Shown here one piece after another: positions 14,910 to 33,950 of a stretch of 64,000 nucleotides of DNA. How positions within the stretch are numbered: position 1 is the stretch's first letter; each line of letters opens with the position of its first letter. The stretch covers positions 62,001 to 126,000 of the forward strand of contig NZ_ALKN02000010.1 of the NCBI RefSeq assembly GCF_000293865.2. Direction: 5' to 3'. The notes beneath the pieces are model-generated. The model was given only the letters and a program-made list of their open reading frames with translations, did not search any database and had not been told where the DNA came from. This stretch comes from Limnohabitans sp. Rim28. GTDB taxonomy: Bacteria > Pseudomonadota > Gammaproteobacteria > Burkholderiales > Burkholderiaceae_C. The position numbers and the translations under genes are program-made.

Positions 14910-15173
14910 ATGTCAAACAATGAAGATGAGAATCAACCCGTGGTCTTGGCCATTTTGGTCGGCGTGATCGTGCTGGTCATTGGGCTGGCCGTGGGGATTG
15001 GCATCGCGAAGAGCCAAAAAGCAGCGCCTGCTGCACCAGCCGCCGTGACAGCGCCTGCGGACCCCGCAACAGCGCCGGCAGCGGCCCCGGATGCTGCAGC
15101 GCCAGCCACAGCGGCTGCACCCGCTGCGGCAGATGCCCCTGCGGCCAACACGGCTACCCCAGCGGCCAAGTGA
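14910..15173 (+). CDS. Small single-pass membrane protein with Ala/Pro-rich tail
   Basis: 87 residues: a short acidic cytoplasmic N-terminus, one transmembrane helix (PVVLAILVGVIVLVIGLAVG, about residues 10-29) and a low-complexity A/P/T tail. CGGAG precedes the start at good spacing, and a strong terminator follows 22 bases after the stop. The composition suggests an anchored spacer reaching into the periplasm. Similar short proteins accompany OmpA-type genes in some Burkholderiales, but no such partner is adjacent here. Function unknown. Confidence 0.75.
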   Translation: MSNNEDENQPVVLAILVGVIVLVIGLAVGIGIAKSQKAAPAAPAAVTAPADPATAPAAAPDAAAPATAAAPAAADAPAANTATPAAK

Positions 15174-15194
15174 GACGCTTTGTGCCTATGGATG

Positions 15195-15217
15195 AACCCG
15201 CTTCGGCGGGTTTTTTT
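15195..15217 (+). terminator. Rho-independent terminator
   Basis: AACCCGC - TTCG - GCGGGTT stem followed by a T-run, 22 bases after the small membrane protein gene and upstream of the edd control region. Confidence 0.9.
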
Positions 15218-15252
15218 ACACCTTCAAATATCCCTCGGCCCACGTACCCTTT

Positions 15253-15319
15253 TGGTAACTTGGCCATTGCAGCCAAAGACAGGAACACGGTTACCATCGT
15301 CGATGTAATTTAGTTACCA
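15253..15319. promoter_or_regulatory. edd-eda control region with repeated GTTACCA elements
   Basis: The 7-base element occurs three times: TGGTAAC at 15253-15259 and GTTACCA at 15290-15296 and 15313-15319. The last forms part of TGTAATTTAGTTACC (15304-15318), a near-palindrome similar to the HexR box of other proteobacteria (TGTAAT-N3-ATTACA, two mismatches). No rpiR/hexR gene is in the window. I infer operator sites for a sugar-acid-responsive repressor of edd-eda. Confidence 0.55.
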
Positions 15320-15340
15320 CGTGCAGCCAGGAGGCCAGAC

Positions 15341-17182
15341 ATGACACTTCATCCCACCGTGGCCGCGGTCACGGCCCGCATCACCGAACGCAGCCGCTCG
15401 ACTCGCCTGGCCTATTTGCAGCAACTCGACGCTGCAGCCCAGCAAGACCCGGGCGCCCAGCGTCTGGGCTGCGCCAACGTGGCCCATGCCTTTGCCGCCA
15501 TGCCGCCAGGTGACAAAGACCGCGCCACTGCGCTCGACAAAATCAAAGTGGTCGCTCCGCGTGCGCCCAATATTGGCATCGTCAACGCCTACAACGACTT
15601 GCTGTCTGCCCACGCGCCGCTGCAGCATTACCCCGACCTGATCAAAGACGAGGCCCGCAAGCGGGGCGCCACCGCGCAGGTGGCTGGTGGCGTGCCCGCC
15701 ATGTGCGATGGCGTGACGCAAGGCACGCCGGGCATGGAACTGAGCCTGTTCAGCCGCGATGTGATCGCCATGGCCACAGCGGTGTCGCTGAGTCACGATG
15801 TGTTTGATGCCGCCTTGATGCTGGGCGTGTGCGACAAGATCGTGCCGGGTCTGCTGATTGGCGCGTTGCACTTTGGCCATTTGCCCACGGTGTTTGTGCC
15901 GGCTGGCCCCATGACCAGCGGTCTGTCCAATACCGAAAAATCCAAGGTCCGAGAGCAAGCTGCACAGGGCTTGGTGGGCCGCCCCGAATTGCTCGAAGCC
16001 GAGTCCAAGGCCTATCACGGCGAAGGCACGTGCACCTTTTATGGCACGGCCAACAGCAACCAGATGCTGCTCGAAGCCATGGGCCTGCATGTGCCGGGCA
16101 CGGCTTTCATTCCCCCGGCCGACGGCCTGCGCCAAGACCTGACCCGAGAAGCTGCCCGCACCGTGTTGGCGCTGGTCCAGGGACAGAACTTCACGCCCAT
16201 TGGCCGTTTGGTCGATGAGCGCAGCATCGTCAATGCCATGGTGGCGTTGTTGGCCACCGGTGGCTCCACCAACCACTTGATCCATTGGGTGGCCGTGGCC
16301 CGCGCGGCGGGCATCGTGATCGATTGGGACGACTTCTCTGCCCTGTCCGATGTGGTGCCCTTGTTGTCGCGTGTCTATCCCAATGGCACGGCCGATGTGA
16401 ACCAGTTCCAGGCCGCAGGCGGGCCGGGCTATGTCATCCGCGAGCTGCTGGACGCCGGCTTCATGCACGCCGATGTGCTGACGGTGCGCCCCGGCGGTCT
16501 GCGCGAGTTCACGCGCAAGCCCGGTACAGCCGATGGGCAATTGGTCTGGCGTGAGATTGGGGCCAGCCAAGACGACACCGTGGTGCGCCCGGCCAGCCAG
16601 CCCTTCAGTGCCACTGGCGGCCTCAAGTTGTTGCAAGGCAATCTGGGGCGCAGTGTGATCAAGGTGTCTGCCGTGCCCGAGGCTTTGCATGTGATCGAAG
16701 CCCCCGCCCGCGTGTTCAATTCGCAAGAAGCCTTGCTGGCCGCCTTCAAGGCCGGTGACATGGACCAAGACCTGGTCTGCGTGGTGCGCTGGCAAGGCCC
16801 GCAAGCCAACGGCATGCCCGAGCTGCACAAACTCACCCCGCCGTTGGCCGTCTTGCAAGGCAAGGGTTTCAAGGTGGCGCTGGTCACCGATGGCCGCATG
16901 AGCGGTGCCTCGGGCAAAGTGCCGGCAGCCATCCACGTCTCGCCCGAAGCCGCAGCCGGAGGTCCGCTGGCCAAGGTGCAAGACGGTGATGTGATCCGCC
17001 TGGATGGCGTGGCGGGCACCTTGCAGGTGCTGGTGAGCGAGGCCGAATGGGCGGCCCGCCCGCTGGCCCCCATGCCTGCCGAGCTGCGCGCTGCCAACGG
17101 CGTGGGCATGGGCCGAGAACTGTTTGCCAACATGCGCCGCCACGCGCTCAAAGCCGAAGAAGGGGCCTGCACATGGCTGTGA
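15341..17182 (+). CDS. edd: 6-phosphogluconate dehydratase
   Basis: 613 residues, the standard Edd length. It converts 6-phosphogluconate to 2-keto-3-deoxy-6-phosphogluconate (KDPG) in the Entner-Doudoroff pathway. IlvD/Edd-family iron-sulfur Cys residues are visible in [31 protein letters not shown] and the [14 protein letters not shown] segment. [21 protein letters not shown] is the C-terminal active-site block. The ATG at 15341 follows AGGAGG. It overlaps eda by 10 bases, so the pair is translationally coupled. It serves the gluconate and idonate route encoded from 35 to 42 kb. Confidence 0.97.
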
Positions 17183-17820
17183 ACTCCAATACCCCGCTGA
17201 CGGCCTTGCAGGTGATGCAAGACGCCCCGGTGATCCCCGTGATCGTGCTCCATGATGTGGCCCACGCCGTGCCCATGGCCCGCGCCCTGGTGGCGGGCGG
17301 CATCCGCATGCTGGAGGTCACGCTGCGCACCCCTCAGGCGCTCGCCTGCATGGAGGCGATTGCCAACGAGGTCGAAGGCGCCGTGGTGGGTGCAGGCACC
17401 GTGCGCAGCGCCGCCGATGCGGCCGCAGCGGCCAAAGCGGGTGCCCGTTTTGCAGTGAGCCCTGGATACACCAAAACGGTGGGACAGGCCTGCCGTGACC
17501 AGGGTTTGTCACTGTTGCCTGGTGTGGCCACCGGCAGTGACATCATGATGGCCCAGGAAGACGACTACACCGAACTCAAGTTCTTCCCGGCCATGCAAGC
17601 GGGCGGCCCCGCCATGCTCAAGGCTTGGGGCGGTCCGTTTTTTGATGTGAAGTTTTGCCCCACGGGCGGCGTCACGGTGGGCAATGCCGCTGAGTTTTTG
17701 AGCTTGCCCAATGTGGCCTGCGTGGGCGGCTCGTGGCTGGTGCCTGCTGATGCCTTGGCTCAAGGCGACTGGGCGCGCATCGAAGCGCTGGCGCGAGAGG
17801 CGAGTCGGTTGCCTCGTTGA
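17173..17820 (+). CDS. eda: KDPG aldolase (2-dehydro-3-deoxyphosphogluconate aldolase)
   Basis: 215 residues. It cleaves KDPG to pyruvate and glyceraldehyde 3-phosphate. The Schiff-base Lys is K136 in ELKFFPA and the catalytic Glu is E48 in [14 protein letters not shown] and CPTGGV phosphate-site turns are present. The start at 17173 lies inside the end of edd. Its stop codon abuts, without a gap, the stop of the convergent gene at 17821; no terminator is visible between them. Confidence 0.97.
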
Positions 17821-18504
17821 TCAGCGCACTGCCCAACCGCCAGACATGGGGAAGACTTGCCCCACAAAGCAGCTGGCCGCGTCGCTGCAGAGGTAGGCCA
17901 CAAAGCGGGCGTCCTCTTCGGCCTTGACCAGGCGGCCCAGCGGCACTTCGCGTTTCAATCGTTCCTGAAAACGCGGGTTGGCCTGCACCTCGGGCGGAAA
18001 GTAGGTGGGGTTGTCGACAAAGTTCTGCGCCACGGCATTGAGCTGGATGTTGTCGGGGGCAAGTTCCACGCCGGCCGCCTGCACATAGGCCAGCTGCGCA
18101 CCACGCGCCGCGCTGTAGCTGGCGGCGCGCTTCATGCCGCGCAAGGCCGAGGCACTGCCCATCACCACGATTTTGCCGCCGCCGCGGGCCTTCATGCCGG
18201 GCACCACCGCCCGCACCAGCCGGGGCAGGGGGTCGACCATGACTTCAAACACCTGATGCCATTCAGCTTCGTCAATCTGCGTGACAGGCGTCGACGGCGC
18301 AGGCAGCGCGAGGTTGATCACCAAAGCGGCGAGTGGCCCAGCCTCTTTGATCATGGCCTGGGCGTCTTGCGGGGCCGTCAGCACGCGATCGTCAGCGATC
18401 ACTTCGGCGCCACAGGCCCGCAGCTCCTGGCACAGGGCTGGCCCCATGAAATCTTGGGCCTGGGTCACCAGGATGCGTTGTCCGCGCAGGTCGATCATGT
18501 TCAT
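17821..18504 (-). CDS. SDR-fold protein with halohydrin dehalogenase fingerprint (T-x4-F-x-G, S-x12-Y-x3-R)
   Basis: 227 residues with the SDR fold but without the two features of NAD(P) reductases. Instead of TGxxxGxG it has T14-QAQD-F19-M-G21, and instead of Ser-Tyr-Lys it has S117, Y130 and R134 spaced S-x12-Y-x3-R. Both patterns define halohydrin dehalogenases (HheA-G), which release halide from vicinal haloalcohols to give epoxides. The C-terminal stretch (NPTYFPPEV, REVPLGRL, SCFVGQVFPMSGGW) also resembles HheC as I recall it. It is last in an operon with glyoxalase I, a thioesterase and an SDR. An alternative is a non-catalytic or epoxide-forming SDR relative. The reading frame upstream to 19074 belongs to antiframe sequence over gloA and is not part of the gene. 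Confidence 0.72.
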   Translation of the reverse strand: MNMIDLRGQRILVTQAQDFMGPALCQELRACGAEVIADDRVLTAPQDAQAMIKEAGPLAALVINLALPAPSTPVTQIDEAEWHQVFEVMVDPLPRLVRAVVPGMKARGGGKIVVMGSASALRGMKRAASYSAARGAQLAYVQAAGVELAPDNIQLNAVAQNFVDNPTYFPPEVQANPRFQERLKREVPLGRLVKAEEDARFVAYLCSDAASCFVGQVFPMSGGWAVR

Positions 18505-18515
18505 CCTCGGGTTGT

Positions 18516-18926
18516 TCAGCGCAAGCCCTGACCCGCAGCGTATTCGGCCCGCTGGATCAGCTCGACTTTGTAGCCATCGGGGTCGGTCACGAACGCGATC
18601 ACGGTGCTGCCGCCTTTGACGGGGCCGGCTTCGCGTGTGACTTTGCCGCCAGCGGCTTTGATTTTTTCGCAAGCGGCATAGGCATCGGGCACGCCCAAGG
18701 CGATGTGGCCGTAGGCCGTGCCCATCTCGTAGCTTTCTGTGCCCCAGTTGTAGGTCAGCTCCAGCTCGGCGTGGTCCGGGTTGTGGCCGTATCCCACAAA
18801 AGCCAGCGAGTATTTGTACTCGGGGTTTTCCGAGGTGCGCAGCAGCTTCATGCCCATCACCTGGGTGTAGAAGTCGATCGAGCGTTGCAGGTTGCCTACG
18901 CGCAGCATGGTGTGAAGAAGTCTCAT
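18516..18926 (-). CDS. gloA: Lactoylglutathione lyase (glyoxalase I)
   Basis: 136 residues, standard for bacterial GlxI. Metal ligands H5, E56, H74 and E122 fall at the same positions as in the nickel enzyme of E. coli. It converts the methylglyoxal-glutathione hemithioacetal to S-lactoylglutathione. The 4-base overlap with the upstream thioesterase gene shows translational coupling, and the halohydrin-dehalogenase-like gene follows 11 bases downstream, suggesting a shared electrophile-handling role (inference). Confidence 0.95.
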
Positions 18927-19495
18927 GGTTGATTTCCGGTGGGTGAGGGCATTTCAAAAACAAGGCAGGCCGTGCTGGCGTGGGCATAGAGCGTGCCATC
19001 GGGCCCGACCAGTTGGGCTTCGGCGGTGGCCAGCTGGCGGCCGCAGTGCAGCACTTTGGCAACGGCCCGCACACGCTGCACTTTGGGGGTGATGGCCTTG
19101 ACCAGTTTCACGCTCAAATCGGCCGTGGTGTAGCCCCGGCCAGGCGGCATCATGGTGTGCACCGCGCAGCCCAGCGCCGAGTCGAGCAGGCTGGCAAACC
19201 AGCCGCCGTGCACCGTGCCCAGCGGGTTCAGGTGCTGCACACCGGGTGTGCCTTGAAAAATGGCCAGACCCGGGCCGACCTCGATCAGCATGAAGTCCAG
19301 CGTCTTGGCCATGTGCGCATGAGGCAGCTCGCCTGAAAGCAGGCCTTGCATGACCTGTAGGCCGGTTTTGCCAGCCACCTGTTCGGGGCGGGCCACACCG
19401 GGGCCGACCCCGGCATCCAGGCGTGCGCGCACGTCGCGCTCTTGGGCCAGCCAGGCCTCTAAATGGTTGGGGCGTGTGTCGCTTGTGGTGCTCAT
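18923..19495 (-). CDS. PaaI-family hotdog thioesterase
   Basis: 190 residues with the hotdog-fold motif [23 protein letters not shown], in which HGG and the following acidic position are the catalytic region of PaaI-type acyl-CoA thioesterases, and [14 protein letters not shown] as the central strand. The N-terminal 60 residues are an extension beyond the minimal domain. It sits between an SDR gene (15 bases upstream) and gloA (4-base overlap). The acyl-CoA substrate is unknown. Confidence 0.88.
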
Positions 19496-19509
19496 GAAAT
19501 CGAACGCTT

Positions 19510-20316
19510 TCAGACGGGTACGGTGTAGTTGAGCGCCATGCGCCCGCCGTCCACCGTGACGATCTCGCCCGTGATGTAGCTGGCCGCATCGCTGGCCAAA
19601 AAGGCCACCACCTTGGCCACTTCGTCGGGCTCGCCCAGGCGCTTCATGGGCGTGCGCATCATGATTTTCTTTTCGGCGGCCTCGCTGGTCAGCACCGCCT
19701 GGCGGGCCAGTTCGGTGGCAATCGTGCCCGGGGCCACGGCGTTGACGCGGATGCCAAAGTCGGCCAGCGCCAAAGACATGGCGCGGGTGAGCTGGTTGAT
19801 GCCGCCTTTGCTCACGTTGTAGCTGGCGATGTTGGGGATGGCCAGCACCGCGTTGACCGAGCTCATGTTGACAATCGCGCCGCCCCCGGTGCTTTTCATG
19901 GCACGGGCTGCGGCCTGACCCATCAAGAACGAGCCCTTGATGTTCACGTTGATGACGGCGTCAAAGTCTTCCTCGGTCACATCCAGAAAATCGGCGGCCC
20001 TGAAGATGCCCGCGTTGTTGACCAGCACGTCCACGCGGCCAAAGGCCTGCAGCACATGGTCCACCAGGGCGTCCACATCGGCCTTGCGCGAGACGTCGCA
20101 GGCCATGAAACCGGCGCTGTGGCCTGCGCTGCGCAATTCGGCGGCCACGGCCGCGCCGCGTTCACTGTTCACGTCAGACAAGATGACATGGGCCGACTCG
20201 GCCGCAAAGCGGCGTGCGCAGGCTTCGCCAATGCCATTGGCCGCGCCAGTGACGATGACCACGCGGCCTTGCAGGCCAAAGGAGAGCTGGTGAGAGGGCA
20301 AAAGGGGGGATGTCAT
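19510..20316 (-). CDS. SDR-family NAD(P)-dependent dehydrogenase
   Basis: 268 residues with all classical SDR elements: VTGAANGIGEACAR (cofactor loop), DVSRKADV, NNAGIF, the catalytic Ser in NMSSVNAV, Tyr and Lys in SYNVSKGG, and SDAASYITGEIVTVDGG at the C-terminus. The ATG at 20316 follows GGAGAACGG. It is the first gene of the leftward operon ending in the halohydrin-dehalogenase-like gene. The substrate alcohol or ketone is unknown. Its intact Tyr-x3-Lys contrasts with the Tyr-x3-Arg of the last gene. Confidence 0.9.
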   Translation of the reverse strand: MTSPLLPSHQLSFGLQGRVVIVTGAANGIGEACARRFAAESAHVILSDVNSERGAAVAAELRSAGHSAGFMACDVSRKADVDALVDHVLQAFGRVDVLVNNAGIFRAADFLDVTEEDFDAVINVNIKGSFLMGQAAARAMKSTGGGAIVNMSSVNAVLAIPNIASYNVSKGGINQLTRAMSLALADFGIRVNAVAPGTIATELARQAVLTSEAAEKKIMMRTPMKRLGEPDEVAKVVAFLASDAASYITGEIVTVDGGRMALNYTVPV

Positions 20317-20405
20317 GGTCCGTTCTCCAGGGTGGGGTTGGGGGTGCGCCATGCTGCCACAGCGACCCAAAAATGCCTGTCGCCAGAATGCACATCGGTA
20401 CAGCG

Positions 20406-20436
20406 ACAATGCAAGCATCGCAAAATACCGCATTGT
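20406..20436. promoter_or_regulatory. Inverted repeat in divergent promoter region
   Basis: An exact 7-base inverted repeat, ACAATGC - 17 bases - GCATTGT, lies between the leftward SDR operon (start 20316) and the rightward zinc-ribbon gene (start 20451). It could be a regulator site for either side; no regulator gene is adjacent. Confidence 0.35.
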
Positions 20437-20450
20437 CCAAGAATTAAGCC

Positions 20451-20702
20451 ATGACCACGAACGCTCAAGCCCCCCAAAAACCGAACTCACCGGACTTGTG
20501 CGAGCCCTGCGCTGGCATCCAGCGCCATTGGCGCAAAGCCCCTGGCCACGCCGAATTGGTGCAAGGCACCCACCAGCGCGAAGACCGTGGCAACGGTCAA
20601 GCCAGCTTCACCCGTTACCGCTGTGACCGCTGCGGTGCGGCTTGGGAGTACGAAAACAACAAAGCCAACCAGCACGCCGGTTGGGCCTTGCTTCAGCATT
20701 GA
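20451..20702 (+). CDS. Small zinc-ribbon-like protein
   Basis: 83 residues with two CxxC pairs, C17/C20 (LCEPC) and C58/C61 (RCDRCG), the arrangement of a treble-clef or ribbon zinc site, followed by WEYENN. Six bases separate it from the RIO kinase gene, so the two are probably co-transcribed. No family function is recognised. Confidence 0.75.
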   Translation: MTTNAQAPQKPNSPDLCEPCAGIQRHWRKAPGHAELVQGTHQREDRGNGQASFTRYRCDRCGAAWEYENNKANQHAGWALLQH

Positions 20703-20708
20703 AGCCGC

Positions 20709-21590
20709 ATGAAAGCGCCTCCTAGACTGCAAAACCTCGTTGAAGAAGGCCTGATCGACACTGTGGTGCGTCAGCTCATGAGTGGCAAAGAGGCCATGGT
20801 GTTTGTGGTGCGCTGCGGGGACGAAACCCGCTGCGCCAAGATCTACAAAGAGGCCACCCACCGCAGCTTTCGGCAAGCGGTGGACTACACCGAAAACCGC
20901 AAGGTCAAGAACTCGCGCTCGGCCCGTGCCATGGCCAAAGGCAGCAAGTTTGGCCGTCAAGAACAAGAAGCCGCTTGGCAAAGCGCTGAGGTGGACGCGC
21001 TCTACCGACTGGCCGCAGCCGGTGTGCGCGTGCCCCGGCCCTTCAACTTCTTTGATGGTGTGCTGCTGATGGAGCTGGTCACCGACGCCCATGGCGACGC
21101 TGCGCCGCGCCTGAACGATGTGGCCTTTACCCCCGAGCAAGCCCAGCAACACCACGCCACCTTGATTGGCGAAGTGGTGCGCATGCTGTGCGCGGGCGTG
21201 GTGCACGGCGATTTGTCGGAGTTCAACATTTTGTTGGCGCACATTCCCGGCGAGGGCGACCTGCCCGGCGTGGACGAACCGGTCATCATCGACTTGCCGC
21301 AGGCTGTGGACGCGGCCGGCAACAACCACGCCCAGCGCATGCTGCTGCGCGATGTGGGCAACCTGCGCGACTTTTTTGGGCAGTTTGCCCCCGAGTTGCG
21401 CCAGACCGACTACGGCCCCGAGATCTGGAGCCTGTACCAAGCCGGGTTGCTGAGCAACGAGACCGCGCTCACGGGTCGCTTTGAGCGCTCGACGGCCAGT
21501 GTGGACATGGCGGCCGTGCTGCGCGAGATCGACGATGCGCGTGACGAAGAAATTGCGCGGCGTTTGCGCATGGCCACACCCTCCGCTTGA
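20709..21590 (+). CDS. RIO1-like atypical serine protein kinase (PA4780 family)
   Basis: 293 residues. The RIO kinase core is present: MSGKEAMVFVV (25-34, nucleotide loop), K44 in CAKIYK, the catalytic loop VVHGDLSEFNILL with D168 and N173, and the metal-binding Asp D195 in IIDLPQAVD. These proteobacterial RIO1-like kinases are stand-alone cytoplasmic proteins of uncertain target. The stop overlaps the next start (TGATG), so it is coupled to the DTW-domain gene. Confidence 0.9.
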   Translation: MKAPPRLQNLVEEGLIDTVVRQLMSGKEAMVFVVRCGDETRCAKIYKEATHRSFRQAVDYTENRKVKNSRSARAMAKGSKFGRQEQEAAWQSAEVDALYRLAAAGVRVPRPFNFFDGVLLMELVTDAHGDAAPRLNDVAFTPEQAQQHHATLIGEVVRMLCAGVVHGDLSEFNILLAHIPGEGDLPGVDEPVIIDLPQAVDAAGNNHAQRMLLRDVGNLRDFFGQFAPELRQTDYGPEIWSLYQAGLLSNETALTGRFERSTASVDMAAVLREIDDARDEEIARRLRMATPSA

Positions 21591-23274: not shown

Positions 23275-23913
23275 TCATCCCCTGAAAACCTTGACAAAGT
23301 TTTGCGCTGCTGCCCGCACTTGTTCGGCACTGCGCCCCGGCGCATACAAGGCAGAACCCAGGCCAAAACCGCTCGCGCCTGCCTGACGGTAAGCCGCCAT
23401 GTTGTCGGGCGTGATGCCCCCCACGGGCATGAGGGCAGCCTCAGGAGGCAACACGGCGCGCAGGGCTTTGACGGTGGCGGGTGAAATCATCTCGGCGGGG
23501 AAAAGCTTGAGGCCGTGCGCTCCTGCACCGAGCGCGGCAAAGGCTTCGGTGGGCGTGGCCACGCCGGGCAGCACCACCATGTTCAGGGCCAAGGCTTTTG
23601 CCACCACGCCGGGGTTGAAGTTGGGGGCCACGACCAAGCGCCCGCCTGCCGCGTGAACGTCTTTGACCTGCTGGGCGTTCAGCACCGTGCCTGCGCCGAT
23701 CAGGGTGTTGGGGAAAAGCCGGCTGAGCGTGGCGATGCTGTGCAAGGGCTCGGGCGAGTTCAGCGGTACCTCTATGATGGCAAAGCCGCTGTCCACCAAC
23801 GCTTGGCCGATGGCCGGCGCTTCGGTGGGGGTCAGGCCGCGCAAGATGGCGATCAAGGGCAGCTGGGCCAAGGCCTGGTTCAGGACAGGGGCGGGGTTTG
23901 TGGGCTGTGTCAT
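23275..23913 (-). CDS. dgoA: 2-dehydro-3-deoxy-6-phosphogalactonate (KDPGal) aldolase
   Basis: 212 residues of the KDPG/KDPGal aldolase family, with E48 in IIEVPLNSPEP and the Schiff-base Lys K136 in GLKLFPAEM. The IEVPLNSPEP form is typical of KDPGal aldolase rather than Eda. It cleaves KDPGal to pyruvate and glyceraldehyde 3-phosphate, the last step of galactonate breakdown. It overlaps the kinase gene upstream by 4 bases. No DgoD-type galactonate dehydratase is adjacent, although sugar-acid dehydratases lie at 28-35 kb. Confidence 0.93.
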   Translation of the reverse strand: MTQPTNPAPVLNQALAQLPLIAILRGLTPTEAPAIGQALVDSGFAIIEVPLNSPEPLHSIATLSRLFPNTLIGAGTVLNAQQVKDVHAAGGRLVVAPNFNPGVVAKALALNMVVLPGVATPTEAFAALGAGAHGLKLFPAEMISPATVKALRAVLPPEAALMPVGGITPDNMAAYRQAGASGFGLGSALYAPGRSAEQVRAAAQNFVKVFRG

Positions 23914-24833
23914 GGCTTGAAGGTCCAAGGGTGTGAGCAGGCGCTGGCCAGCGCGAACAGGCCTGCCCAAGTGGCTTGCGCGCCATGGCTTTGGCAGGCT
24001 ATGCCCAAGTGTTGCAGGGCCAGGCTGTAGCGCTGGGTGAGGGTGTCACTGCCGATCAAGACCACCGGTCCCTGCGCTAAGGGCACGCTTTGGGTGCGCA
24101 GCTCTTCGCCGATCAGCAGGCCCGACAAGTAACTGGGCAATTGGGCTGCGCTCAGGCGGTCAAACAAGCCCAGTGTGCGCACGGCAAACAGGTGGTGCAG
24201 CACGCTGCCCGCTCGCTGGCTTTGGCCCACGCCTTGCAAAAAAATCGCTGGGTCGAAGGCCCCGTTCAGGTCCAGGGTCTTGCCCAAAATCGAGTGCTGG
24301 CTCATCAACGCAAACACCTCGCCGGTCATGAAGGTCTGAAACTGCATGACGCGTCCGCTGTGGACTTGCACCCATTTGCTGTGCGTGCCCGGCAGCACCA
24401 AGGTGGCGTTGTCGCGCCCGGTCAATTGCAGCGCGCCAAAGATCTGCACTTCTTCGCCACGCATCACGTCGGGCGTGTGCAGCGTGTCGGCACTTGTACA
24501 GCTCAAACCCGGCACCAGGGCCATGCGATCGGGCTGCAGCCACAGCAGGTGTTGGCTCAGCTCGGCAAAGCCCGCAGGGCAGGGGCAGTAGGGCGCCTCT
24601 TGCCAGCCTTGGCGGCTACCGGCCATGCCAGAGATCAGGCACAGCGCGCCCTCGGCTTGCATCCAGTCTCCAAAGAGTTCGTCGAACACCGCTTCAAACT
24701 GGCCCGGCGGCACGGTGAGGATGCCGCGTGGAAATTCGCGTGATTCGAGCACCTGGCCGCTGGTGCCCAGCCGTGCGCCACGCAGCGAAGAGGTGCCCCA
24801 GTCGATGGCGATCAAAGGTCTCTTCATGCTCAT
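23910..24833 (-). CDS. dgoK: 2-dehydro-3-deoxygalactonokinase
   Basis: 307 residues with the ASKHA-fold phosphate-1 loop IAIDWGTSSLRGARL near the N-terminus and GEEVQIFGAL and PGTHSKWV blocks characteristic of DgoK. It phosphorylates 2-keto-3-deoxygalactonate to KDPGal. The start overlaps the stop of the upstream KDG kinase gene (ATGA), and its stop overlaps the aldolase start, so three enzymes are translated as a coupled unit. Confidence 0.92.
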   Translation of the reverse strand: MSMKRPLIAIDWGTSSLRGARLGTSGQVLESREFPRGILTVPPGQFEAVFDELFGDWMQAEGALCLISGMAGSRQGWQEAPYCPCPAGFAELSQHLLWLQPDRMALVPGLSCTSADTLHTPDVMRGEEVQIFGALQLTGRDNATLVLPGTHSKWVQVHSGRVMQFQTFMTGEVFALMSQHSILGKTLDLNGAFDPAIFLQGVGQSQRAGSVLHHLFAVRTLGLFDRLSAAQLPSYLSGLLIGEELRTQSVPLAQGPVVLIGSDTLTQRYSLALQHLGIACQSHGAQATWAGLFALASACSHPWTFKP

Positions 24834-25801
24834 GAGGCGGTGCCTTTCGATGGCGCGTTCAACACCTTCAGCACGGTGTCGCGAGAGGGCAAGGGGCCGA
24901 CCGCGCCGAAGCCTTGCACCGACAGTGCGGCTGCGGCATTGGCATAAGCGCAGGCCGCCCACAAGTCGTCTCCAGCCGACAAACGCGCCAGCAGGTTGCC
25001 TGCAAAACAGTCTCCCGCGCCCGTGGCGTCTAAGGCCGTGACCGCATGGCCCGGTATGCGGTGTTGGTTCTTGCCGTCACTGGCCAGCGCGCCGTCGCCG
25101 CCCAATTTGAGCACCACTTGCGCTGCCCCCTGGGCGTGACTCCAGGCAATGATGTCGGCCGCTTTGGTGAGGCCCGTGAGTGCGCTCATGTCTTCGAGGC
25201 TGGGCAAAAACAGATCACACAGACCCACCGCTTGGCGGATGCAGGCCTGCGCCCGGGCCAGTGGCCACAGCGACAAACGCAAGTTCGAGTCGAGCGCCAC
25301 CCGAGTGCCAGCGTTGCGTGCATGCGCCATGGCGGCAAAAGCCGTGTCGCAAGCCGAGGCGGAAATCGCCAAAGAGATGCCCGACAGGTGCAGCCACTGG
25401 CTGCAGGCAATGGCGTCTTGCCAGTGCGCCAAGTCTTGTGGCTGCATGCGGCTGGCCGCCGATCCGGCACGCGCATAGCTGAAGTGGTGACCTTGCGCAT
25501 CGTGGCTCACAAAGTACATCCCGGTGGGCGCTTGTGCATCTCGCAGCACGGTGGTGCTGCCCACGTTTTCGCGTTGCCACAGGTCCATGAGGCACTTGCC
25601 CCAACGGTCGGTGCCCAGACGCGTCAGGTAGGCTACCCGCGCACCGGCCCGTGCCGCAGCAATCGCGGCGTTGCTGGTGTCGCCACCAAAACCTTGGGCA
25701 TAGAGCGGGGCGTCGTTTGCGTCTGAATGGGGGCCTTGGTTGAACTCGACCATGGCCTCACCCAAGGCCACGATGTCGAGGGTTTTGGATGGCTGTGTCA
25801 T
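24830..25801 (-). CDS. kdgK: 2-dehydro-3-deoxygluconokinase (PfkB family)
   Basis: 323 residues of the ribokinase fold: VALGEAMVEF at the N-terminus, GGDTSNAAIAAARAGARVAYL (substrate glycine pair) and the C-terminal ATGAGDCFAGN with catalytic base D264. KdgK phosphorylates 2-keto-3-deoxygluconate to KDPG, the Eda substrate. It is first in the kdgK-dgoK-dgoA operon and divergent from a PLP enzyme gene whose possible product is 2-keto-3-deoxygluconate. Other PfkB sugar kinases are possible, but the operon supports KDG. Confidence 0.88.
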   Translation of the reverse strand: MTQPSKTLDIVALGEAMVEFNQGPHSDANDAPLYAQGFGGDTSNAAIAAARAGARVAYLTRLGTDRWGKCLMDLWQRENVGSTTVLRDAQAPTGMYFVSHDAQGHHFSYARAGSAASRMQPQDLAHWQDAIACSQWLHLSGISLAISASACDTAFAAMAHARNAGTRVALDSNLRLSLWPLARAQACIRQAVGLCDLFLPSLEDMSALTGLTKAADIIAWSHAQGAAQVVLKLGGDGALASDGKNQHRIPGHAVTALDATGAGDCFAGNLLARLSAGDDLWAACAYANAAAALSVQGFGAVGPLPSRDTVLKVLNAPSKGTAS

Positions 25802-25882
25802 GTGAACAAAAAGAGCAAGGACTCAGTGTGCGGTGGGAGAATCAGCGCAAAACGGTCCACGCGGTGAATGGAGCAAAGCGAG

Positions 25883-27163
25883 ATGAAAGACGATTTTGTA
25901 CTGAACGCGGCTTGCAAGGGCTTCCCCTTGGCGGCTGAGCCCTGCGCGGTGTCCCAGTTGGGCGCACGCAACTGGAACCTGCTGGACGATGCGCTGGCTT
26001 ACCCGGTGGCCGTGTTGCGCCGCCCAGCACTCGCGCACAACCTGGCCTGGATGCAAGACTTTGTGCAGCGCAAAGGCGTTGCCTTGGCGCCGCATGGCAA
26101 GACCACCTTGTCGCCGCAGTTGTTTCGCATGCAGTTGCAAGCCGGCGCTTGGGGCCTGACCTTTGCCAACGTGCACCAGCTGCGCGTGGGTCTGGCGGCC
26201 GGGGTGCAGCGCGCCATCATCGCTAACCAATTGGTGTCGGATGCCGACTTGGACGGATTGGATCTGTTGTTGCGCCAGCACCCGCAGGCCCAGGTGTGGT
26301 TTTTGGTGGACGCTGTGGCGCAGCTCGATCAGCTGGCCGAGTGGGGGCGTCGCCGGGAGAGCCCCCGTTGCTGGGACGTGTTGTTGGAGCTGGGCATTGC
26401 GGGGTATCGCACCGGCTGCCGCACGCACGAACAGGCCTTGGTATTGGCGCAGGCCATGGCTGCATCGCCTTGCGTGCGCTTGGGCGGCGTGGAGTGTTAC
26501 GAAGGTGGACTGGGCCAATGCGACAGCGCCCACGACATCGAGGCCGTGAGCGGTCTGGTGCGCAGCGTGCAGGCTTTGGTGCAGCAGATCGATGCGCAAA
26601 ACCTGTGGGGTGGTGACGAAGTTTTGCTGTCGGCGGGCGGCTCGGCGGTGTTCGATTTGGTGATCCCCATGCTCAAAACGCAGGTCAAAAGCCGACCGGT
26701 GCAAGGCGTTTTGCGCTCGGGTTGTTATGTGACGCACGACCACTGGAATTACGCCCGTTACCTCAAACTGGTGGAAGCGCGCGAGGGTCTGAGCGCTTCG
26801 CTGCAACCCGCGCTGGAGATCTGGACCCGGGTGCAATCGGTGCCCGAGCCAGGCTTGGCCATTTTGACGGCAGGGCGGCGCGACCTGTCCTTTGACCAGT
26901 GCATGCCCATGCCGGTGCGCTGGGCGGCTCGCGGGCAAAGTGGTCAAGATGCCATGCAAGCCACGCCCGCTGCCTGGAAAGTCAAGGCGCTCAGCGACCA
27001 GCACGCGCACATGGTGTTTGATGCCGAGGGCGTCTGGCCGCAAGTAGGTGACCGCGTGGCTTTGGGCATTTCGCACCCCTGCACCACGTTTGACAAGTGG
27101 CGCTGGATGGCCATCATCGAAGACGATGGCCGCATCAGTGGGGCAATCAGCACACATTTTTAA
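25883..27163 (+). CDS. DSD1/D-threonine aldolase-family PLP enzyme, possible D-glucosaminate dehydratase
   Basis: 426 residues of the alanine-racemase-like fold. PLP Lys is K73 in APHGKTTLSPQL, and the C-terminal metal pair is H398 and C400 in HPCTTFDKW, as in D-serine dehydratases and D-threonine aldolases. The start at 25883 is preferred because GGAG lies 9 bases before it; an ATG at 25868 is also in frame. It is divergent from kdgK. Since the Pseudomonas D-glucosaminate dehydratase is reported to belong to this fold and yields 2-keto-3-deoxygluconate and ammonia, that role is plausible here. D-serine/D-threonine deamination is the alternative. Confidence 0.85.
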   Translation: MKDDFVLNAACKGFPLAAEPCAVSQLGARNWNLLDDALAYPVAVLRRPALAHNLAWMQDFVQRKGVALAPHGKTTLSPQLFRMQLQAGAWGLTFANVHQLRVGLAAGVQRAIIANQLVSDADLDGLDLLLRQHPQAQVWFLVDAVAQLDQLAEWGRRRESPRCWDVLLELGIAGYRTGCRTHEQALVLAQAMAASPCVRLGGVECYEGGLGQCDSAHDIEAVSGLVRSVQALVQQIDAQNLWGGDEVLLSAGGSAVFDLVIPMLKTQVKSRPVQGVLRSGCYVTHDHWNYARYLKLVEAREGLSASLQPALEIWTRVQSVPEPGLAILTAGRRDLSFDQCMPMPVRWAARGQSGQDAMQATPAAWKVKALSDQHAHMVFDAEGVWPQVGDRVALGISHPCTTFDKWRWMAIIEDDGRISGAISTHF

Positions 27164-27186
27164 ATGGCGAACCCGTGTCAAAAAAG

Positions 27187-27224
27187 AAAAGGTCGCCACG
27201 CAGCCTCCGCGTGGCGACCTTTTT
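27187..27224. terminator. Strong bidirectional terminator between convergent genes
   Basis: A 15-base perfect stem (AAAAGGTCGCCACGC and its complement) around a 7-base loop with A- and T-tracts at both sides, located in the 66-base gap between the PLP enzyme gene (ends 27163) and the leftward denD gene (ends 27230). Confidence 0.95.
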
Positions 27225-27229
27225 GAAGT

Positions 27230-28234
27230 TCACTTCAAACCGTTCAAGGCCTCGGCCGGGTAGCCTGGGCGGGTCTTGCAGTCCTCGATGTACTGCTCAA
27301 TGATGGCCTCGTAGCTGGCATCGGCGCGCAAGCCCAGGGCATGCGCCCGCTCAAAGGTGCAGCCCTTGGCCCAGTTGTCCACGATGGCGGCGATGCGTTC
27401 GTCTTTTTGGAAAGTCACGCGGGCACGCACGGCAGGTCCACCGACCTTCTCGAGGGCTGCCAGCATCTCGCTCACCTTCACATTCAGGCCCGGCAGGTTC
27501 AGCGCCATGCGGCCGCCGAAGGCTTCGCGGCTGGCTTCGAACACGGTGATCAGGCCGTGCACGGTGTTTCCCGGCGAAGAAATGGGGTGCGACACGGTGG
27601 CATCCACTGGGCAGGTGGTGGCGGTGCCGGCCAAGGGCTCACGGATGATGCCGCTGAAAAACGAGGAGGCTGCGCCATTGGGCTTGCCGGGGCGCACGGC
27701 CACGGTCATCAAGCGTGCAGCGCGGCCGTCGATGTAGCCCTTGCGGGTGTAATCGGCCACCATGTACTCGATCATCAGCTTGTGCGTGCCATACGAGGTT
27801 TGCGGCGTGGGCAAGGTGGTGTCTGCCACCAGCGTGGGCATGGGGTTGGCCGCATCGGGGCCGAACACCGCGACCGAGCTGGCAAACACCAGGCGCGAAA
27901 CTTTGCCGCTGGCGCGAATGCCGTCGAGCAGCAAGCGCGAGCTGTCCACGTTGGAGCGCAGGCCCAGGTCAAAGTCCAGTTCGCATTCGCCCGAGACGGC
28001 CGATGCCAAATGGAACACGCCATCGAAGCCACTCTTGAACAAGTCACCCTGTTCCAGCATGGGTCCAGCGTGGCCCTGGACCCGTGGGTCGGCCAGCAAA
28101 TCTGCCGGGGCAGGGAACAGGTCGGCAATCACCAACTCGCGCACGCTTTGGCCATGGAGCTGTCCGCGCTTCAAAATCTCGCGGGCCAGCCGTGCACCCA
28201 AAAATCCGGCACCGCCGGTGATCAAAATTCGCAT
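27230..28234 (-). CDS. denD: D-erythronate dehydrogenase-like SDR (DenD family)
   Basis: 334 residues of extended-SDR type: GGAGFLG (7-13) binds NAD, S119/S120 with Y148 and K152 (TSYGTHK) form the active site, and RPGKPNGAASSFFSGIIREPL is a DenD hallmark shared with H. influenzae HI1014 as I recall it. DenD oxidises D-erythronate to 2-keto-D-erythronate. The usual OtnK/OtnC/OtnI partners are absent. Here it follows a sugar-acid dehydratase gene by 16 bases, so its real substrate may be a longer aldonate. Confidence 0.85.
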   Translation of the reverse strand: MRILITGGAGFLGARLAREILKRGQLHGQSVRELVIADLFPAPADLLADPRVQGHAGPMLEQGDLFKSGFDGVFHLASAVSGECELDFDLGLRSNVDSSRLLLDGIRASGKVSRLVFASSVAVFGPDAANPMPTLVADTTLPTPQTSYGTHKLMIEYMVADYTRKGYIDGRAARLMTVAVRPGKPNGAASSFFSGIIREPLAGTATTCPVDATVSHPISSPGNTVHGLITVFEASREAFGGRMALNLPGLNVKVSEMLAALEKVGGPAVRARVTFQKDERIAAIVDNWAKGCTFERAHALGLRADASYEAIIEQYIEDCKTRPGYPAEALNGLK

Positions 28235-28250
28235 GTGTTTTCCTTGTCCA

Positions 28251-29987
28251 TCAGTGGTTGTCTTTGGGCACAGCCGAACCGCGTTGACCCACCAAAAAGT
28301 CCATGTCCGCGCCTTCGTCGGCTTGCAGCACATGGTCGATGTAGAGCTTCCAGTAGCCAGAATTCATGGCCGGTGCGGGTTTTTCCCACAGGTTCAAGCG
28401 GCGTGCCAGTTCCTCGTCGCTGATCATCAGTTGCAATGTGCGTTCAGGGACATTGAGCGAGATCATGTCACCGTTTTGAACCACCGCCAGCGGGCCGCCT
28501 GCAGCGGCTTCGGGGCTGGTGTGCAAGACCACCGTGCCGTAGGCGGTGCCGCTCATGCGGGCATCGCTGATGCGGACCATGTCGGTGATGCCTTTGCGCA
28601 GCACTTTGGGTGGCAGGGGCATGTTGCCCACCTCGGCCATGCCGGGGTAGCCCTTGGGGCCGCAGTTCTTCAGGACCAATATGCAGGTCTCATCGACATC
28701 CAGATTTTCGTCGTCGATGCGTTTGTGGAAATCGTCGCTGTCTTCAAACACCACGGCGCGGCCGGTGTGCTGCATGAGCGCGGGCGTGGCCGCGCTGGGC
28801 TTGATCACCGCGCCGCGTGGCGCCAAGTTGCCGCGCAGGATGGCGATACCGGCTTTTTCTTTGAAAGGCGCATCCAAGGTCTTGATCACACGGGGGTCAT
28901 AGTTCACGGCCGCAGCGTTGTTCTCGCGCACGGTTTTGCCGCTCACGGTGATGATGTTGGTGTGCAAGAGATTTTCGATTTCCTTCATGACCACCGGCAA
29001 GCCCCCTGCGTAGCAGAAGTCTTCCATGAGGTGCTCGCCAGAAGGCTGCATGTTCAAGATGCAGGACATTTCACTGCCCAATCGCTCAAAGTCATCCAAG
29101 GTGAGTTTCAAGCCCAGGCGACCCGCAATCGCGATCAGGTGAATGACGGCGTTGGTCGAGCCACCGATGGCGGCCAGTGTGCGGATGGCGTTTTCAAAAG
29201 CTTCGCGGGTCAGCACTTTGCTGATGGTCTGGTCGGTGTGAACCATCTCCACAATCCGGCGACCCGAGTCGCGCGCCAACACATTGCGACGACCATCCAC
29301 AGCTGGGAAAGTGGCATTGCCCGGCAAACCAATGCCCAGTGCCTCGACCATGCAGGCCATGGTGCTGGCCGTGCCCATGGTCATGCAGTGGCCATGGCTG
29401 CGGTGCATGCAGCTTTCGGCATCAAAGAAGTCGGCCAACTTCAAGGTGCCCGCACGCACCTGTTCGCTCATGCTCCAGACGCCCGTTCCTGAGCCGAGTT
29501 CTTGTCCGCGCCACTTGCCGTTGAGCATGGGGCCACCGCTGATGCCAATGGTGGGCAGCCCAACACTGGAGGCGCCCATCAGCAAGCTGGGGGTGGTTTT
29601 GTCGCAACCCATGAGCAGGACCACGCCGTCGATCGGGTTGCCTCGGATGGATTCCTCGACGTCCATGCTGGCGAGGTTCCGGTAGAGCATGGCGGTGGGG
29701 CGCAACAGCGTTTCACCGAGCGACATCACGGGAAACTCAAGAGGGAATCCGCCAGCCTCGTAAACCCCGATCTTGACCTGCTCGGCCAAAGCGCGGAAGT
29801 GCGAGTTGCAGGGCGTCAGTTCGCTGAAGGTGTTGCAGATGCCGATGACTGGGCGCCCGTCAAACTGGTCATGAGGAATGCCCTTGCCCTTGACCCAGCT
29901 GCGGTAGGCAAAGCCGTCGCGGTCTTGGCGTCCAAACCATTGCTGGCTGCGCAGGTCTTCGGGTTTTTTACGAGGGGTATCGCTCAT
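28251..29987 (-). CDS. IlvD/Edd-family sugar-acid dehydratase (L-arabinonate dehydratase type)
   Basis: 578 residues. Three iron-sulfur Cys residues, C60 (ELTPCNSHF), C128 (GCDKTTPS) and C201 (SHGHCMTMG), match the [2Fe-2S] pattern of L-arabinonate and D-xylonate dehydratases, and DARMSGTAYGTVVLHTSPEA is the catalytic C-terminal block. Length fits Rhizobium L-arabinonate dehydratase (579). It dehydrates a C5 or C6 aldonate to a 2-keto-3-deoxy acid. It forms an operon with denD and diverges from a FadR-type regulator whose operators lie in the shared promoter. Exact substrate is not decided by sequence. Confidence 0.88.
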   Translation of the reverse strand: MSDTPRKKPEDLRSQQWFGRQDRDGFAYRSWVKGKGIPHDQFDGRPVIGICNTFSELTPCNSHFRALAEQVKIGVYEAGGFPLEFPVMSLGETLLRPTAMLYRNLASMDVEESIRGNPIDGVVLLMGCDKTTPSLLMGASSVGLPTIGISGGPMLNGKWRGQELGSGTGVWSMSEQVRAGTLKLADFFDAESCMHRSHGHCMTMGTASTMACMVEALGIGLPGNATFPAVDGRRNVLARDSGRRIVEMVHTDQTISKVLTREAFENAIRTLAAIGGSTNAVIHLIAIAGRLGLKLTLDDFERLGSEMSCILNMQPSGEHLMEDFCYAGGLPVVMKEIENLLHTNIITVSGKTVRENNAAAVNYDPRVIKTLDAPFKEKAGIAILRGNLAPRGAVIKPSAATPALMQHTGRAVVFEDSDDFHKRIDDENLDVDETCILVLKNCGPKGYPGMAEVGNMPLPPKVLRKGITDMVRISDARMSGTAYGTVVLHTSPEAAAGGPLAVVQNGDMISLNVPERTLQLMISDEELARRLNLWEKPAPAMNSGYWKLYIDHVLQADEGADMDFLVGQRGSAVPKDNH

Positions 29988-30028
29988 GGGGTGTTTCCGT
30001 GGGTAGGGCGGTTAGGGATGCTGAAAAT

Positions 30029-30046
30029 CCTATCGTATGACGATAG
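30029..30046. promoter_or_regulatory. FadR-type operator 1 (dehydratase side)
   Basis: CTATCGT - ATG - ACGATAG (30030-30046) is a perfect inverted repeat containing T-C-G-T-N3-A-C-G-A, the FadR-subfamily GntR consensus TNGTNNNACNA. It lies 42 bases upstream of the dehydratase start. A closely related copy is at 30144-30161. Confidence 0.8.
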
Positions 30047-30143
30047 AAAAAAAAGCCGTGCTTGTAAAGCCAGTGACACGCGGGCAAACCCTAGATGCCA
30101 AAACGACCGATCCTAGGGTTTACCAGAGTCTGTCCCGGGCCTT

Positions 30144-30161
30144 CAATCATCATATGATAGG
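30144..30161. promoter_or_regulatory. FadR-type operator 2 (regulator side)
   Basis: On the minus strand this reads CCTATCATATGATGATTG, against CCTATCGTATGACGATAG for operator 1 (14 of the first 15 positions agree apart from two G/A and C/T changes). It contains the ATCATATGAT palindrome and lies 18 bases before the FadR-type gene, suggesting autoregulation. Confidence 0.72.
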
Positions 30162-30179
30162 TCGCTGAATGCAGACGTC

Positions 30180-30983
30180 ATGACGAACAATTTCCACAAA
30201 AATTCTCTTGATTTATTGGGCCAGGCTATTTTGTCTGGCCGCTATGCTGTGGGCGCGAGTCTGCCCCCTGAGCCCATCTTGTGCGAAGCCTTGGGTGTGA
30301 GCCGTACCGTGGTGCGCGAGGCCATCAAGTCCCTGGTGGCCAAAGGATTGTTGGTCACCGGTCCCAAAGTCGGTACTCGGGTCATGCCCGATGCCCACTG
30401 GAATTGGTTTGACCCCGATGTGGTGGCTTGGCAGTCGGCCTGTGGTTTGACGCCTGATTTCTTGAAAGATTTGCAAGAGCTGCGCCGAGTGGTCGAGCCT
30501 GCTGCTGTCCGTTTGGCCGCTGAGCGGGCCACGCCCGAAGACATTGCGCACATCGAAGCCGCTTACGCTGGCATGAAACAAGCGGTGGAGCAGGGGGGCG
30601 ATTACGTCACGCACGACCTGCGTTTTCATGAGGGTTTGCTACAGGCTTCGCACAACCGCATGCTGGTGCAAATGAGCAAGGCGCTCAATGCTTTGCTGCG
30701 CACCAGTTTCGAAATCTCCACCCGCATCGAGGATGGCACCAAGACCTCCTTGCCTTTGCACCGGGCGGTGCTCAACGCCGTGATCGCGCGCAACCCTGCC
30801 AAGGCCGAACGGGCCGTGATGGTCCTGATCGAAGGGGCTCGGCAAGACATTGAGCAGGTGTTGGCCTCGCGCCGCAAGTTGCCGATGGTCTCGGGCGTGG
30901 CCACGCCCATCAAATCGAAAGTCCGGTCTCATCCGTCAGCCGCCAAGAAAGCGCTTAAAAAAGTAGTCAGGGCAATGGCCTGA
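30180..30983 (+). CDS. FadR-family (GntR superfamily) regulator of sugar-acid genes
   Basis: 267 residues. The N-terminal winged helix is LPPEPILCEALGVSRTVVREAIKSLVAKGLL, and the helical FCD ligand domain follows (about 85-230) with metal/ligand residues in HDLRFHEGLLQASHNRML and LPLHRAVLNAV. A basic tail ends the protein (KKALKKVVRAMA). It is divergent from the dehydratase-denD operon, and TRAP transporter genes follow 14 bases downstream. Two matched operators in the 192-base gap suggest it represses both directions until a sugar acid binds. Confidence 0.92.
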   Translation: MTNNFHKNSLDLLGQAILSGRYAVGASLPPEPILCEALGVSRTVVREAIKSLVAKGLLVTGPKVGTRVMPDAHWNWFDPDVVAWQSACGLTPDFLKDLQELRRVVEPAAVRLAAERATPEDIAHIEAAYAGMKQAVEQGGDYVTHDLRFHEGLLQASHNRMLVQMSKALNALLRTSFEISTRIEDGTKTSLPLHRAVLNAVIARNPAKAERAVMVLIEGARQDIEQVLASRRKLPMVSGVATPIKSKVRSHPSAAKKALKKVVRAMA

Positions 30984-30997
30984 GCCGAAAGACACGC

Positions 30998-31564
30998 ATG
31001 CAAACAACCATCCATGTTTTTTTCAAACTGCTGGAGTTCCTGGTGGTGACGTGCCTGGTGGCCATGGTCATCATGGTCTTTGGCAACGTGGTGCTGCGCT
31101 ACGGTTTCAACTCGGGCATATCGGTTTCGGACGAGATGTCGCGCTACTGCTTCATCTGGCTGACCTACATCGGAGCGATGGTGGCCATGCGCGAAAAAGG
31201 CCACTTGGGTGTGGACACCCTGGTGCGGCGTTTGCCCCTGGGCGGCAAAAAGCTGTGCTTTTTTCTCAGCGAAATCCTGATGCTGCTTTGCAATGCTTTG
31301 TTTTTTTGGGGCACTTGGAAAATGCACGACTTGCAAGTGACCAATATCTCGGTGGTGGTGGGCATTTCCATGATCTGGATTTATGGCATCGGTTACGTCA
31401 CAGCCAGCGTCATGGCGGTGATGAACCTCAACCAACTGCGCTTGCTGCTGACCGGTCGCCTGAAAGAGGAAGACTTGGTGATGGTGGTGGAGTCTGAGGA
31501 CACCGTGGTGCTCGAAGACCTGGAACCCAAAGCGGTGACACCTGAAGGGCGGGGGCGCGCATGA
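30998..31564 (+). CDS. TRAP transporter small permease (DctQ)
   Basis: 188 residues with four predicted membrane helices (FKLLEFLVVTCLVAMVIMVF first) and the DctQ motifs FGNVVLRYGFN and ISVSDEMSRYCFIWLTYIGA. The cytoplasmic tail is acidic. It overlaps the large permease gene by 4 bases. It forms the membrane part of a sodium-driven TRAP importer with the DctM and DctP products downstream. Confidence 0.94.
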   Translation: MQTTIHVFFKLLEFLVVTCLVAMVIMVFGNVVLRYGFNSGISVSDEMSRYCFIWLTYIGAMVAMREKGHLGVDTLVRRLPLGGKKLCFFLSEILMLLCNALFFWGTWKMHDLQVTNISVVVGISMIWIYGIGYVTASVMAVMNLNQLRLLLTGRLKEEDLVMVVESEDTVVLEDLEPKAVTPEGRGRA

Positions 31565-32859
31565 CCATCGCTGTTTTTGTGTTCAGTCTGCTCGGGGCCA
31601 TGGCCTTGGGCATGCCCATTGCCTATGCCTTGCTGGTGTGTGGTTTGAGTTTGATGGCCTACATGGCCAGCAACGGCATGATCAATGCGTTCGACAGCCA
31701 AATCCTGGCGCAGCGCTTTGTCGATGGGGCCGACAACTTCCCCTTGCTGGCTGTGCCCTTTTTCTTGTTGGCCGGTGAGTTCATGAACGCGGGGGGCTTG
31801 AGCCGCCGCATCGTCAACCTGGCCATGGCCTGGGTGGGACATTTCAGGGGCGGTTTGGGTTATGTGGCTGTGATGGCCGCGGTCATCATGGCCTCGCTGT
31901 CGGGCTCGGCCGTGGCCGACACGGCGGCGCTCGCGGCCTTGTTGATTCCGATGATGAAGCGGGCAGGCTACAACGTGGGCCGTTCTGCCGGTTTGATCGC
32001 ATCGGGCGGCATCATCGCGCCGGTGATCCCGCCTTCGATCGGTTTCATCATTTTTGGTGTCGCAGCCAACGTCTCCATCACCAAGTTGTTTTTGGCGGGC
32101 ATCGTGCCAGGCCTGTTGATGGGTGTGGCCATTGGCTTGACGTGGTGGTGGGTGGCCAAGCGCGAAAACGTGCAGCCGGGACCACGCATGAAGCTGGCCG
32201 AAAAACTGCAGGCCACCCGTGAAGGCATCCTGGCCCTGGGCTTGCCGGTTTTCATCATCGGGGGCATGAAGTTTGGCGTGTTCACCCCAACCGAGGCCGC
32301 TGTGGTCGCGGCCGTGTACAGCTTTGTGGTGGGGGTGTTCATTTACCGTGAGTTGGAGTGGTCCAAGTTGTACGGATTGATTTTGGCGGCCGGTAAAACC
32401 ACCTCGGTGATCATGTTCCTGGTGGCTGCCGCCATGGTCAGCGCTTGGTTGATCACGGTGGCCAACATCCCGGCCGAGGTGGCCCGGATGATGGAGCCAC
32501 TCATGCACAACAAAACCTTGCTCATGGTGGTGTTGATGCTTTTGGTCATTGTGGTGGGCACGGCGCTGGACTTCACACCCACCGTGTTGATCCTGACCCC
32601 GGTGTTGATGCCTTTGGTCATCAAGGCGGGCATCGATCCCGTTTATTTTGGTGTGTTGTTCATCATGAACAACGCCATCGGCCTGATCACACCCCCCGTG
32701 GGCACGGTGCTCAATGTGGTGTGTGGTGTGGCCAAAATCAACATGGACACGGCCTTTAGAGGGGTGCTGCCATTTTTGTGGGCGCAACTCGCTGTGCTGG
32801 CCTTGTTGATTGCTTTTCCATCCATCGTCATCGAGCCGATGAAATGGATGCTGCGATGA
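31561..32859 (+). CDS. TRAP transporter large permease (DctM)
   Basis: 432 residues, about 12 membrane helices. Family segments include VPFFLLAGEFMNAGGLSRRIVNLAMAWVGH (31760-31850), ASLSGSAVADTAALAALLIPMMK and NNAIGLITPPVGTVLNVVCGV. It is the ion-coupled transport subunit. It overlaps dctQ by 4 bases and is followed by dctP 36 bases later. The second TRAP set in this window (37827-40676) is homologous. Confidence 0.95.
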   Translation: MTIAVFVFSLLGAMALGMPIAYALLVCGLSLMAYMASNGMINAFDSQILAQRFVDGADNFPLLAVPFFLLAGEFMNAGGLSRRIVNLAMAWVGHFRGGLGYVAVMAAVIMASLSGSAVADTAALAALLIPMMKRAGYNVGRSAGLIASGGIIAPVIPPSIGFIIFGVAANVSITKLFLAGIVPGLLMGVAIGLTWWWVAKRENVQPGPRMKLAEKLQATREGILALGLPVFIIGGMKFGVFTPTEAAVVAAVYSFVVGVFIYRELEWSKLYGLILAAGKTTSVIMFLVAAAMVSAWLITVANIPAEVARMMEPLMHNKTLLMVVLMLLVIVVGTALDFTPTVLILTPVLMPLVIKAGIDPVYFGVLFIMNNAIGLITPPVGTVLNVVCGVAKINMDTAFRGVLPFLWAQLAVLALLIAFPSIVIEPMKWMLR

Positions 32860-32895
32860 TTTTTTAACCCCGTGTATTTTTTAAAGGAGACAAGC

Positions 32896-33903: not shown

Positions 33904-33950
33904 TTGTCAACCCCGTCTCGATGCCACGTTTGCAGTGCATTGGGTCCACG

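Follow-up and report, generated by a model that had tools for sequence, protein, structure and literature searches.

The hheD gene and its two motifs

The stretch of DNA analysed here, 64,000 nucleotides of Limnohabitans sp. Rim28 (contig NZ_ALKN02000010.1, positions 62,001 to 126,000; hereafter the window), carries between gloA and eda a gene that we call hheD. As judged from its sequence, its product is very probably a working D-type halohydrin dehalogenase (HHDH) and one more member of a known family.

17821..18504, minus strand: hheD, predicted D-type halohydrin dehalogenase, 227 amino acids from the ATG at 18504, frame intact

A second ATG at 18498, preceded by GAGG, would give a protein of 225 amino acids, and methionine stands in the column of this codon in three aligned relatives (L009, L010 and L012); M3 may thus be the true start, in which case the residue numbers used here are 2 too high.

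HHDHs are defined by two motifs, T-x4-F/Y-x-G, which replaces the glycine-rich NAD loop, and S-x12-Y-x3-R (PMC11976700, PMC4989007). The signature of the classical NAD(P)-dependent short-chain dehydrogenases/reductases (SDRs) is T-G/A-x3-G/A-x-G plus S-x10-14-Y-x3-K (PMC11976700). Numbered from the ATG at 18504, the 227-residue protein presents T14-x4-F19-x-G21 and S117-x12-Y130-x3-R134, precisely the residues named in a preliminary description of the locus, and the glycine-rich loop and the Tyr-x3-Lys pair that this description reported as lost are indeed missing. The place of the glycine loop is occupied by T-Q-A-Q-D-F-M-G and that of the catalytic lysine by Arg134. The protein also contains the segments NPTYFPPEV and SCFVGQVFPMSGGW.

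The six motif residues (T14, F19, G21, S117, Y130 and R134) are invariant across 44 aligned sequences, with relatives down to 62% identity. A scan of a genome collection for the motif pattern gave 571 matches, 528 of which are relatives by tblastn at E 1e-3, although D-type is not assured for all of them. The best 80 of these 528 were kept as the relative set (identity at least 67%, apart from local variation); together with 36 further loci, overlapping in part with the same contigs, and the window, they make up the 117 loci compared below. Both motifs occur in 79 of the 80 loci, the exception (L079) having its 5' end cut off, and in 35 of the 36 further loci, where the single exception is without motif 1. 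Neither motif was present in 24 control open reading frames (ORFs) that are closer to the ordinary SDR of the window than to the HheD protein, and none of 2550 other ORFs with a length of 200 amino acids or above had the two in this order. The motif pair in HheD is not there by chance.

Relation to known halohydrin dehalogenases

The identity of the protein as an HHDH is well supported, resting on the motifs, on 63% identity to HheD2, on the predicted fold and on a small tree. The model of HheD presents an SDR fold that is most similar to solved HHDHs, the nearest being HheD2 (7b73, 63%), HheD8 (8xxb, 56% over 214 residues) and HheB (4zd6, 42-43% identity); the protein is closer to the known D enzymes than to HheB. 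HheD2, whose host we take to be the gammaproteobacterium HTCC2207, aligns over the full length with both motifs at identical positions. Its 63% identity comes from the structural alignment; 37% of the residues differ. HheD8 has both motifs in common with HheD, and 8xxb is an engineered triple mutant (A69F/M124P/R127G) with chloride, whereas the present protein has A69, M124 and A127. HheB, the nearest non-D subtype seen, shares both motifs and a similar length; its identity is 43%, and motif 1 has a tyrosine where HheD has phenylalanine.

The preliminary description had read the gene as an HHDH and had proposed a tree and a structure prediction as checks, and both place the protein with HHDHs. 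That identification stands on the four lines of evidence given above, and two further arguments of the same description, the rarity of the class and the operon as evidence of function, do not. The designation of a rare enzyme class fails for the D-type enzymes: in the taxonomic family, 39 of 299 sampled genomes, from 31 of 141 genera, contain a relative (E 1e-45 or better). Newly found HHDHs have been described as mostly A- or D-type (PMC4989007). The nearest relatives of HheD belong to Limnohabitans or Comamonadaceae, and the cultured L. planktonicus, L. radicicola and L. lacus are among the carriers of the gene. The source genome (3.4 Mb, 67 contigs) holds a single copy of hheD and 27 weaker matches at 22-33% identity.

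Neighbouring genes and the gloA-eda junction

The genes around hheD are as follows (the spans searched were 19510-20313 for the SDR and 17179- or 17182-17820 for eda).

18516..18926, minus strand: gloA, lactoylglutathione lyase (glyoxalase I); TIGR00068, 175.2 bits (cut-off 120); PF00903
18923..19495, minus strand: hotdog-fold thioesterase; TIGR00369, 64.9 bits (cut-off 36.6); PF03061
19510..20316 (ATG at 20316), minus strand: ordinary SDR with TGxxxGxG and YxxxK; NF005559, 273.8 bits (cut-off 215); PF13561
17173..17820 (ATG at 17173), plus strand: eda, KDPG/KHG aldolase, convergent to hheD; TIGR01182, 241.3 bits (cut-off 156.05)
15341..17182, plus strand: edd, phosphogluconate dehydratase of the Entner-Doudoroff pathway; TIGR01196, 925.7 bits (cut-off 708.25)

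The SDR, the thioesterase, gloA and hheD follow one another on the same strand with a 14 bp gap (counted with the SDR ATG at 20316), a 4-bp overlap and an 11 bp gap, and we infer that hheD is probably co-transcribed with the other three. The stop codons of hheD and eda abut. Scanning of 15000-21000 returned no promoter-like site and 17 terminator-like sites, compared with 5.4 in shuffles; none of the 17 is placed where hheD ends on the strand that encodes it. Near edd-eda, the window has at 23275-39110 a region of sugar-acid type, with a second KDPG/KHG aldolase, a 2-keto-3-deoxy-galactonokinase, a PfkB kinase, a GntR regulator, an enolase-superfamily protein, a zinc alcohol dehydrogenase and two TRAP DctM permeases.

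Comparison of 60 genomes of the genus provides insight into the status of hheD at this position. The gene is present in 19 of them, gloA (E 1e-40) in 54 and eda (E 1e-60) in 50. Among the carriers, gloA lies within 100 bp of hheD in 15 of 19 and eda within 150 bp in 13 of 19; among the 38 non-carriers that have gloA or eda, both genes are on one contig in 30, no more than 1 kb apart in 26 and no more than 100 bp apart in 21. The junction could be read in 41 of 57 genomes (40 and the window); 16 were omitted because their flanks were split, partial, missing or very distant. Fourteen of these junctions contain hheD and 27 have no trace of it (tblastn, E 1e-3). In one genome whose gloA protein is 98% identical (G326), the gloA stop meets eda directly, and in another (G328) the junction is empty and hheD is found 140 kb away. 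Two genomes (G347 and G348) have hheD copies of 62-64% identity with gloA not on the same contig. Because the neighbours are kept without hheD and the junctions are clean, hheD is an optional insert, an accessory gene between the conserved neighbours gloA and eda.

Two loci (L192 and L193, in G305 and G349) have about 1.1 kb of other sequence at the gloA-eda junction instead of hheD, so the junction seems open to insertions. The tree of gloA and eda (41 rows) divides into 12 rows whose junction is without hheD and 29 rows that include the 14 carriers. Presence and absence require 10 changes on this tree against a shuffled mean of 11.9, and 70-76 of the 500 shuffles needed as few; with its poor resolution the tree does not discriminate gain from loss.

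The preliminary description had placed hheD in a detoxification-like operon. The gene order and the short gaps or overlaps were as it said; their value as evidence of function is another matter. A closely spaced SDR-thioesterase-gloA block is found in 11 of 19 carriers and also in 11 of 38 non-carriers (the count used the best 32 of 49 thioesterase rows, the remainder being weaker and located elsewhere). Of the 80 relatives, 18 have gloA near hheD (matches covering 50% or more of the query), all with an enzyme at least 87% identical; the other 62, some of them short contigs, have no gloA near hheD, and one of them (L070) has an enzyme of 88%. The 36 further loci add two, L038, which repeats the stretch of L072, and L143. 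The latter, from another genus of the taxonomic family and with an enzyme of 70% identity, holds inside 10 kb the genes for gloA, thioesterase, SDR, edd and eda, differently ordered and oriented, and is a partial exception to the rule that relatives below 87% identity have different neighbours. Gene calling missed hheD in 14 of the 117 loci (the window is one of them), so neighbour counts based on it are lower bounds. With the block present where hheD is not, and with other neighbours in the more distant relatives, the neighbourhood is weak evidence of function, and a conserved detoxification operon was rejected as such evidence, the gloA linkage being limited to enzymes at least 87% identical in the 80-locus set.

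Outside the genus, other genes accompany hheD. A small gene (DUF6172 by Pfam, from one member) is near it in at least 13 loci and directly upstream in at least 12 (for example L110, 8650-8979), and an alpha/beta hydrolase, named from one member, lies downstream on the opposite strand in at least 11; the genes after this hydrolase are, by the look of their sequence, presumably urease accessory genes. In three of the 117 loci (L104, L119 and L128, from Pseudomonas abyssi and Halopseudomonas), an epoxide hydrolase-like gene precedes hheD on its strand, with 14-69 bp between the end of the former and hheD, whereas here the upstream gene is gloA; the search query for this count was one Halopseudomonas hydrolase, which detects its own relatives only. 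Among solved structures, this alpha/beta hydrolase comes nearest to epoxide hydrolases (5cw2 EphA, E 4.9e-78), and it is the expected catabolic partner of hheD in these loci. Their HheD proteins are 67-69% identical to ours, with both motifs. For this lineage, that of Pseudomonas pertucinogena, PMC6922532 lists D-type enzymes resembling HheD12, and its main text does not speak of an epoxide hydrolase. Only two HHDH genes were known in 2016 to share an operon with an epoxide hydrolase (PMC4989007), so the pairing in Halopseudomonas is a known exception and not the rule. In the source genome, the best match to the Halopseudomonas hydrolase, a candidate, is on another contig; a search of this genome for an EHN-type epoxide hydrolase gave no match, and one type II haloacid dehalogenase scored above cut-off.

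Proposed chemistry and physiological role

The catalytic serine of HHDHs holds the substrate oxygen. HheD would be a cofactor-free enzyme of the SDR fold, in which Y130, tuned by R134 and with S117 holding the oxygen, would take the proton from a vicinal haloalcohol. Ring closure would give the epoxide, and the departing halide would enter a pocket, bordered by the T14/F19/G21 loop, that stands where other SDRs have their NAD site. In the reverse direction an epoxide would be opened with halide, azide, cyanide or nitrite. The family is described as having a Ser-Tyr-Arg triad, a pocket for the nucleophile instead of the NAD site, and a reaction that is reversible with other anions (PMC4989007). 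We infer activity and substrate from this likeness: the enzyme probably releases halide from haloalcohols, and the epoxide products would either be taken up by an epoxide hydrolase encoded elsewhere in the genome or react spontaneously.

Several observations weigh against a working D-type HHDH. The 43% identity to HheB exceeds the figure of below 30% given for identity between subtypes (PMC4989007), and it is thus the higher identity to HheD2 and HheD8 that decides between D and B. The structure was predicted as a monomer with no ligand, HHDHs being homotetramers (PMC4989007), and its predicted local distance difference test score (pLDDT) falls below 50 at residues 119-125, 161-163, 188-190 and 222-227, partly beside the active site; with 119-125 and 188-190 among these segments, the motifs alone point to the nucleophile pocket. 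The tree is small, has long branches and unsettled bootstrap values, and shows no supported fork dividing all D rows from HheB; HheC and 6a41 entered it as fragments, and 2 of 6 SDR control loci were dropped as no ORF was picked, which we count on the same side. No epoxide hydrolase adjoins hheD, and a search with the Halopseudomonas enzyme found no relative of it in the 18.7 kb around the gene. Of 184 NCBIfam matches, the 25 shown all score under cut-off and belong to generic models for SDRs or FabG, and the Pfam matches above cut-off are generic SDR domains; with family libraries giving such matches only, automatic annotation would probably miss hheD.

These generic matches, and the SDR fold itself, are what a NAD-dependent SDR with a degenerate motif would also give. 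Such an enzyme is very improbable given the replaced glycine loop, the change of the catalytic lysine to Arg134, the invariance of the six motif residues, and top structures and a tree that are those of HHDHs; an ordinary SDR was rejected on the motifs, the fold ranking and the tree. The patchy distribution within the genus could suggest a functionless copy kept by chance, a reading to which we give equally little credence: the frame is intact, the motif positions do not vary even in relatives of 62% identity, and absence is clean, with zero remnants at the 27 junctions.

The same enzyme could have a different physiological job. Some Limnohabitans might have captured a D-type HHDH at the end of the gloA operon, where it would act, in an electrophile-defence unit with glyoxalase I, by opening reactive native epoxides or meeting other electrophiles with small native anions, and not in the breakdown of man-made haloalcohols. 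The position of hheD 11 bp after gloA and the tight linkage in 15 of the 19 carriers are in agreement with such a unit, and several carriers are bins titled after ponds or lakes. HHDHs are used as biocatalysts, their natural role is described as unsettled, and other physiological functions are stated not to be excludable (PMC4989007); nothing further on this role was among the literature matches listed. We nevertheless regard the defence role as unlikely, since 11 of 38 non-carriers keep the gloA-thioesterase-SDR block without hheD, gloA does not adjoin hheD in relatives below 87% identity (L143 in part excepted), and the three Halopseudomonas-group loci with hheD after an epoxide hydrolase follow a haloalcohol-catabolism pattern. 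If true, it would provide a natural role for the HHDH family, which the literature leaves open. The presence and absence of hheD at one fixed junction offers comparable Limnohabitans strains with and without the gene, which makes a test of natural role practical.

A literature search for Limnohabitans together with HHDH, supplements lying outside it, gave no mention of Limnohabitans among the matches listed. Two public bins, titled Akkermansia muciniphila (L055, CALQKH020000016.1) and Rickettsia typhi (L092, CALPPP020000007.1), contain hheD loci of Comamonadaceae type. The former has the whole Limnohabitans block with an enzyme 96% identical, and its title looks wrong; that of the latter is suspected to be wrong.
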